From Cordylochernes scorpioides (Eukaryota; Arthropoda; Arachnida; Pseudoscorpiones; Chernetidae), in assembly GCA_030710605.1 (NCBI GenBank), contig CP092863.1, forward strand, positions 121,756,203-121,820,202: a stretch of DNA of 64,000 nucleotides, in the 5' to 3' direction. Position numbers and translations under genes: made by a program. A model generated the notes under the pieces. It saw nothing but the letters and a program-made list of their open reading frames with translations. It was not told the origin of the DNA and did no database searches. How positions within the stretch are numbered: the stretch's first letter is position 1; each line of letters begins with the position of its first letter. This document shows positions 29,971-30,443 of this stretch, one piece after another.

Positions 29971-30190
29971 GTATATCCAGGATAGCCTAGTGGACATGGC
30001 ATCTGCCCGGTAAGCGGAATACTGTGGGTTCGATTCCCATCCCTGGACACTTTTATTTTCTGTTCATCATTACTCTTCACAATTCATCCTTTCATACCTC
30101 AACTCTAAGGTTAGAAATAATCAATAAGGCACAAATTGGATTATAGATTATAAACACAAGGTAATAAGACCAAATCCAAATAAATAAATA

Positions 30191-30236
30191 GTGTGTGACG
30201 TTTCGATAACAGCGTTGTTACCATCTTCAGACAAAA
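30191..30236 (-). ncRNA. Hammerhead ribozyme motif, complete core (left arm)
   Basis: Reverse complement: CTGAAGA (30224-30230), stem II GGTAAC.../GTTATC-type, GAAA (30201-30204), then CGTC and ACACAC pairing weakly with the TTGT before the core. Confidence 0.6.
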
Positions 30237-30269
30237 GTACTGAAGTTTTGTCTTTTGGAATTCAGTACT

Positions 30270-30313
30270 TTTGTCTGAAGATGGTAACAACGCTTTTACC
30301 GAAACGTCACACA
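30270..30313 (+). ncRNA. Hammerhead ribozyme motif, complete core (right arm)
   Basis: CTGAAGA (30275-30281), stem II GGTAA/TTACC, GAAA (30301-30304), one-pair helix III, C17 at 30308, helix I TGT/ACA. Confidence 0.6.
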
Positions 30314-30443
30314 CTATCTATTTATTGGGATTTGGTCTTATTACCTTGTGTTAGAAATAATCGTTATTTCTCCTTTAAAAAAATTGATTTTTCATTGAAA
30401 AGAAACTCATGCGGGATAATTTTCAAATGTCGTTTTACAACAC

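Follow-up and report, generated by a model that had tools for sequence, protein, structure and literature searches.

A fold-back insertion in a SINE of the pseudoscorpion Cordylochernes scorpioides is probably a solo inverted pair of Penelope-type pseudo-LTRs

Results

The window analysed here, a stretch of 64,000 nucleotides of the pseudoscorpion Cordylochernes scorpioides (assembly GCA_030710605.1, contig CP092863.1, positions 121,756,203 to 121,820,202 of the forward strand), contains a short interspersed nuclear element (SINE) with a tRNA-like head that is split by a fold-back insert of 228 bp at 30123-30350 (plus strand). The most plausible reading of the insert is two pseudo-long terminal repeats (pseudo-LTRs) of a Penelope-like element (PLE) placed head to head, each arm having a minimal hammerhead motif and one end only having a tail. 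The 5' part of the host SINE lies at 29976-30122 and the 3' part at 30363-30440, both on the plus strand and both delimited by comparison with other copies in the window; the tRNA-like head (29976-30048) matches the Rfam tRNA model with 48.5 bits. Exact 12-bp repeats TTAGAAATAATC flank the insert on the plus strand at 30111-30122 and 30351-30362 and represent the left and right target-site duplications. A G precedes both copies of the 12-mer, so that the flanking repeat can also be read as 13 bp; the true duplication of this copy may be 10-12 bp, because many copies of the insert have TTT at their right end that is possibly part of the element. The window has five further SINE copies, at 4000-4175, 9941-10083, 17666-17835, 47561-47789 and 52400-52629, that are uninterrupted at this site and carry the 12-mer once, in one copy exactly and in four with at least one change.

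The insert is an inverted repeat whose arms (30153-30244 and 30261-30352) are 96% complementary and 16 nt apart. The left arm has its RNA sense on the minus strand; the right arm, on the plus strand, has no tail and occupies 30261-30350 within the insert. About 30 outer nucleotides (30123-30152, minus strand) extend the left side only and remain unpaired; we refer to this extension on one arm as the tail. The 16 nt between the arms (30245-30260, no strand assigned) are a copy-specific central junction filler. Each arm holds a hammerhead-like core, at 30275-30305 on the plus strand and 30200-30230 on the minus strand, with cuts predicted by inspection after GTC 30306-30308 and just after GTC 30199-30197, respectively. 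A loose hammerhead-core pattern matched the window 10 times compared to 0.78 matches expected from shuffled sequence. The anatomy of the arm agrees with that published for PLE pseudo-LTRs, namely hammerhead-like core, start codon at stem II, one-sided tail and variable target duplications. Further matches to the core pattern are present at 30457-30481 (minus), 23407-23430 (minus), 57084-57108 (plus), 23154-23178 (plus) and 41328-41351 (minus); that at 30457-30481 is located shortly beyond the interrupted SINE on its 3' side, and by inspection no GUC-like cut site follows it.

The insert family is very abundant. A search of the genome (2.62 Gb, 24 contigs) with the insert yielded 5365 first-look candidates; scoring covered 40 of them, the window copy and 39 others, the latter taken with 0.8 kb on each side. 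These are the best matches to the window insert and are thus selected for similarity to it. In every one of them the match spans positions 6-226 of the 228 or more. The left end is usually GATAAGGCAC and the right end CCTTGTG, followed by TTT in 23 of the 40. By a fixed rule 31 of 40 copies have a target duplication of their own of 9-17 bp, most commonly 13 or 14 bp and AT-rich in appearance, compared to 8 of 1160 control pairings of flanks from different copies. Divergence from the 40-copy consensus, from which the columns of the centre were mostly left out, ranges from 1.8 to 6.6%. A preliminary description of the locus had proposed a 228-bp insert in a SINE between a duplicated 12-mer, built from a 30-base leader and two inverted arms with a hammerhead core in each. 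The insertion is borne out by the five uninterrupted SINE copies, the architecture by our repeat and pattern analysis, and its boundaries recur in each of the 40 scored copies. The 12-bp length of the duplication holds at the window site, where the repeats are exact, but is not a fixed property of the family. The notion of an element caught in the act of inserting was overstated, given that the window copy has diverged from the consensus by 5.3%.

Further arms were collected from 20 loci of 10 kb around copies (L048-L067), which contain 272 arm matches in 200 kb, densest in the middle two kb. A non-redundant set of 39 sequences including the window (303,863 bases) holds 322 arm matches and 118 head-to-head pairs. 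Subtraction of the 40 similarity-picked pairs and of five in L067, a partial duplicate of L058, leaves 73 pairs that were not picked by similarity and still lie near selected copies. A target duplication was found for 17 of these 73, while the control gave 10 of 1445. Despite the very high density of arms around known copies, the 64-kb window contains a single pair.

Most pairs have a single tail. Over all 118 pairs, 88 have one tail, three have two and five have none, with 22 not classed; the corresponding numbers for the 73 pairs not picked by similarity are 50, one, five and 17. Exactly one tail is thus present in 50 of 56 classifiable pairs, while independent choice at each end would leave only about half of the classifiable pairs mixed. 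Among 67 unpaired arms of at least 60 nt, 31 carry the tail and 26 do not. Arm variants were compared as a guide to whether one or two RNAs gave rise to a pair. The two arms of a pair agree at arm position 73, a subfamily marker, in 96 of 100 cases (74 expected), an agreement that the time structure of subfamilies could also explain. The variants in the 40 similar copies are nearly all private, and only 6 of 177 variant sites over both arms are common to both arms of a copy.

While the arms are nearly constant across copies, the central 4-29 nt differ in almost every one. Among the 40 copies a common centre was found only for L034/L035, L038/L039 and L037/L045. The first two are segmental duplicates, 95.7% identical over 1.69 kb and 99.5% identical over 1.84 kb, respectively, and the third pair has the minimal 14-nt centre. 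A strict pattern between intact arm ends, applied to the non-redundant set, retrieved 41 centres of 4-29 nt comprising 40 distinct strings, the sole repeat being the L034/L035 duplication; the 4-nt centres TGAA and TTCA are alike in one orientation, which reduces the number to 39. In 21 of 37 distinct centres of at least 6 nt, a stretch of at least 7 nt recurs within the innermost 49 nt of the arm, both strands considered, compared to a mean of 1.8 of 37 and a maximum of 6 in 500 rounds of shuffling. Re-copied filler of this kind is a mark of error-prone end joining such as that of polymerase theta. L034 and L035 differ by 4.3% and yet share an identical 27-nt centre. A hypermutable loop as a product of later decay is rejected on this ground; the rejection does not extend to an early one-time event. 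Because the centres are copy-specific, partly derived from the arm and stable in the L034/L035 duplication, each insertion forms a mirror image of its own, at the event itself or shortly after, rather than receiving it from a master fold-back.

The commonest inner end, arm position 1, accounts for 133 of about 321 ends in the non-redundant set; a second cluster of 27 ends at position 8 belongs by inspection to a diverged subfamily, and the remainder is scattered. In longer copies a TATTTAAA box is found by inspection about 30 nt upstream of TCATTCAG. At distinct centres 73 of 80 arm ends reach 0-3 nt past TTCAG towards TCA, and 2 of 80 centre ends match the upstream sequence for 10 nt. We read the commonest arm end as the predicted 5' end of an RNA that would start at a TATA/initiator promoter (ATTCAG) and to the end of which both cDNAs would have been copied. 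Four loci (L059:4281-4870, L050:6914, L066:506 and L058:5282) have about 110-138 nt upstream of the arm in common, including the TATTTAAA box; this stretch then diverges near a poly-T or poly-A run, as if part of a longer unit with a boundary of its own. At L064:5780-6229 four arm units of about 112 bp stand in tandem, with TGTGCC directly followed by ATTCAG at the junction, so that the unit again starts at ATTCAG; the arrangement is retrozyme-like or that of a template jump.

The predicted ribozyme cut lies 48 nt inward of the start of the full arm. A weak local excess of 17 inner ends is seen at arm positions 46-51, and single arms end exactly there. In the genome-wide counts, for which the compared patterns differ in complexity and decay and provide a rough control, 302, 88, 218 and 249 junctions fall within 12 nt of arm positions 16, 41, 49 and 59, without an isolated peak at the cut (position 49) relative to the other three. 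The cut was therefore discarded as the source of the arm ends, and ribozyme cleavage gives no sign of shaping these insertions. Helix III of the predicted arm hammerhead is reduced to ACGT. By inspection, a start codon stands at the beginning of stem II with the predicted cut 28 nt further on, and the arm consensus has no reading frame of more than 27 codons after this start codon. For the consensus of the inserted form, folding is predicted to pair the two arms in a single near-perfect hairpin that would conceal the ribozyme, and some shortened pairs are joined at the stem II palindrome. The best Rfam lines for the insert are microRNA hairpins (mir-2513 and others); they are below the cut-offs, reflect the hairpin and were set aside.

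The GIY-YIG domain, the endonuclease of PLEs although not unique to them, gave 17,015 candidates in the genome, of which 150 were scored and 146 matched. Among these matches all 11 pairs less than 10 kb apart are arranged minus-then-plus, which means head to head, given a C-terminal endonuclease. The orientation is uncertain for the pair C1:8987892/8990875, where frame 1 of the flank L069 is open beyond the domain. Stretches of 900 bases downstream of the domain were inspected in three cases: L068 and L070 contain a like hammerhead in other sequence, and L069 contains none. L069 (G000:C1:8991051-8991950) has one frame open across all 900 bases past the domain, and possibly represents a PLE with the endonuclease at the other end of the protein.

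The pseudo-LTR of this second PLE family, like that of L068 and L070, lies downstream of GIY-YIG frames elsewhere in the genome, and its fold-backs have one tail. The window holds one such fold-back at 36377-36587 (no strand assigned). In model coordinates the ends of its two arms differ by 28 nt, and it is flanked by a probable 12-bp target duplication, read by inspection with one mismatch, at 36367-36378 and 36588-36599. Another is present at L061:2222-2483 with the probable duplication AAAATAGTTTAT (by inspection). A 5'-truncated copy of the second family, retaining the 3' end with its hammerhead, lies at 7253-7770 of the window on the minus strand and is 89% identical to L068:133-652. A pseudo-LTR that follows GIY-YIG frames also forms fold-backs; a GIY-YIG-linked pseudo-LTR therefore gives the same kind of product.

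Elsewhere in the window, a 5S rRNA match of 56.7 bits covers 33955-34073. Short matches to the 3' part of the arm recur at roughly regular spacing at 34413-35358 and probably belong to an unrelated tandem array. A further tandem array at 38707-39769, with repeats like VSTVVKDCVHSCQ, is open in several frames on the minus strand.

Discussion

Target duplications, common outer ends, a single tail, partly templated junctions that differ from copy to copy, a constant commonest inner end and head-to-head GIY-YIG neighbours were all observed directly. We consider it likely that the family consists of solo inverted pseudo-LTR pairs of a PLE that arise through two-ended priming followed by end joining. 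The RNA would start at the TATA/initiator promoter at ATTCAG. A PLE reverse transcriptase with a GIY-YIG endonuclease would nick both target strands in a staggered manner, and both nicked ends would prime copying of the pseudo-LTR RNA, possibly one and the same RNA for both sides, one end from the start site that lies where the tail ends and the other from the site about 28 nt further in. Both cDNAs would run to the 5' end of the RNA. Error-prone end joining would then connect the two cDNA ends and introduce a short filler, in part re-copied, and the target duplication would result from fill-in of the staggered nicks. One tail per pair fits this scheme because both strands would prime at two start sites that are known for PLEs before the ends are joined. 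The origin of the inverted duplication in reverse transcription or repair, already suggested in the preliminary description, is strengthened by the copy-specific, partly templated centres and by the L034/L035 duplication.

The biochemical model closest to this scheme is PAc, a Poseidon PLE of Anolis carolinensis, the protein of which cuts and extends both target strands (PMC11167929). PAc initiates reverse transcription at two internal positions of the RNA, which delimit the tail; its hammerhead overlaps the start of the open reading frame (ORF), with the start codon at the beginning of stem II and the cut 26 bp further on (PMC11167929). In the arm described here the start codon and the predicted cut are placed alike, with a spacing of 28 nt instead of 26, but no reading frame of more than 27 codons follows. 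Ribozyme mutants of PAc were unaffected in insertion in vitro (PMC11167929), which agrees with the junction counts at the predicted cut. A joined product or an inverted pair is not described for PAc in vitro in the main text of that study, whereas the genomic products of the present study show the join, with one start site of each kind.

Inverted head-to-head pseudo-LTRs with an optional one-sided tail are also found in the GIY-YIG PLEs of the rotifer Adineta vaga, such as Pen2a_Av, which has a 31-bp tail, target duplications of 8-10 bp and TATA/initiator-like motifs in the pseudo-LTR (PMC3846280). According to the same study, the inverted copy of the rotifer elements accompanies an ORF-bearing element of low copy number, in contrast to the solo pair at very high copy number described here; its authors favoured self-priming, while in the present family the centres can be compared across copies. 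Similarity also exists to metazoan non-LTR retrozymes, which are likewise small, non-coding and AT-rich, with a type I hammerhead and target duplications of more than 4 bp; they are 150-450 bp long, repeated directly in tandem and equipped with canonical hammerheads, and PLEs have been suggested as their movers (PMC7229834). The unit described here differs from retrozymes so described in being inverted, in having a minimal hammerhead and in forming tandem units at one locus only (L064). No paper that joins the terms 'Penelope-like elements' and 'twin priming' was found in the open-licence literature, and we make no claim to a first description of the inverted solo pair.

Several points weigh against two-ended priming of a PLE pseudo-LTR. 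An autonomous PLE with this same pseudo-LTR was not found by the GIY-YIG domain search, in which three flanks were looked at. No Rfam hammerhead is present among 27 matches in the insert at E values up to 10; stem I is weak by inspection, and among the 80 arms in the 40 copies only 52 keep the core CTGANGA...GAAACGTC. A target duplication was not detected under the rule used for 56 of the 73 pairs not picked by similarity. Finally, the start site of PAc is alike on top and bottom strands, and a strict rule of one start site of each kind is not predicted from that system (PMC11167929). Such a rule would be expected if a PLE dimer acted on one RNA with one protomer at each start site, so that a coordinated two-ended integration leads to a head-to-head pair with exactly one tail and to templated end joining. 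We put this narrower version forward tentatively, its chances being a little short of even.

Four other origins have to be weighed. One cDNA, or an antisense-templated product, might fold back and copy itself before it is joined to the second target end. Self-priming of this type was proposed for rotifer PLEs on the basis of palindromes at inverted junctions (PMC3846280), and it would account for the common subfamily marker in the arms of a pair (96 of 100 compared to 74 expected), as would subfamilies active at different times. It predicts a second tail, however, which is present in 1 of 56 classifiable pairs, and clean loops rather than 4-29 nt of copy-specific filler; we regard it as unlikely. 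The centre could also be a later scar if a perfect palindrome were inserted and its tip, shortly after insertion, underwent a single round of opening and repair. Long perfect palindromes are unstable in many organisms, and some truncated pairs are indeed joined at the stem II palindrome. Revision of a palindrome should lead to a loss of inner ends, though, whereas the commonest inner end is constant at position 1 and filler has been added. The later stability of the centre in L034/L035 is a further argument against it, one tail per pair is left unexplained, and overall such a revision appears quite improbable.

Inverted repeats, common ends and a high copy number would also be features of a fold-back DNA transposon, similar to a miniature inverted-repeat transposable element, that is moved whole by a transposase. 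Target duplications of 9-17 bp, ends that are not equivalent (one tail) and an interior that is not inherited make this extremely improbable, and the variable duplications support the earlier preference for retrotransposition over a terminal-inverted-repeat transposase. In a retrozyme-like cycle the hammerhead would cut a tandem transcript, the unit would circularise and the circle would be reverse transcribed. The cores in the arms, the tandem array of four units of about 112 bp at L064:5780-6229 and the weak excess of 17 inner ends at positions 46-51 are in agreement with such a cycle. Against it, the start of a full arm is 48 nt upstream of the predicted cut, the genome-wide junction counts do not single out the cut and the unit is inverted rather than tandem, so that we assign it a very small probability. 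The proposal that hammerhead-bearing units move as defined elements therefore stands for the unit, which has common boundaries, duplications of its own and uninterrupted SINE counterparts; it is not supported for the hammerhead as the driver, since the commonest arm end is at the predicted RNA 5' end and not at the cut.

How PLE integration is completed was left open by the in vitro study of 2024, in which steps are 'yet to be validated experimentally' (PMC11167929), and the work of 2013 tentatively ascribed inverted junctions to self-priming (PMC3846280). The abundant solo inverted pairs of C. scorpioides with their copy-specific junctions represent a natural experiment on this process. Two-ended priming with end joining can be told apart from self-priming by the junctions of these pairs, by the one-tail rule and by the inner ends, and the same features predict the outcome of an in vitro reaction in which both strands are labelled. 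If integration is indeed coordinated at both ends, inverted pseudo-LTRs would be the normal product of PLEs and not an accident, and each copy would bear a one-off, readable scar of its repair.
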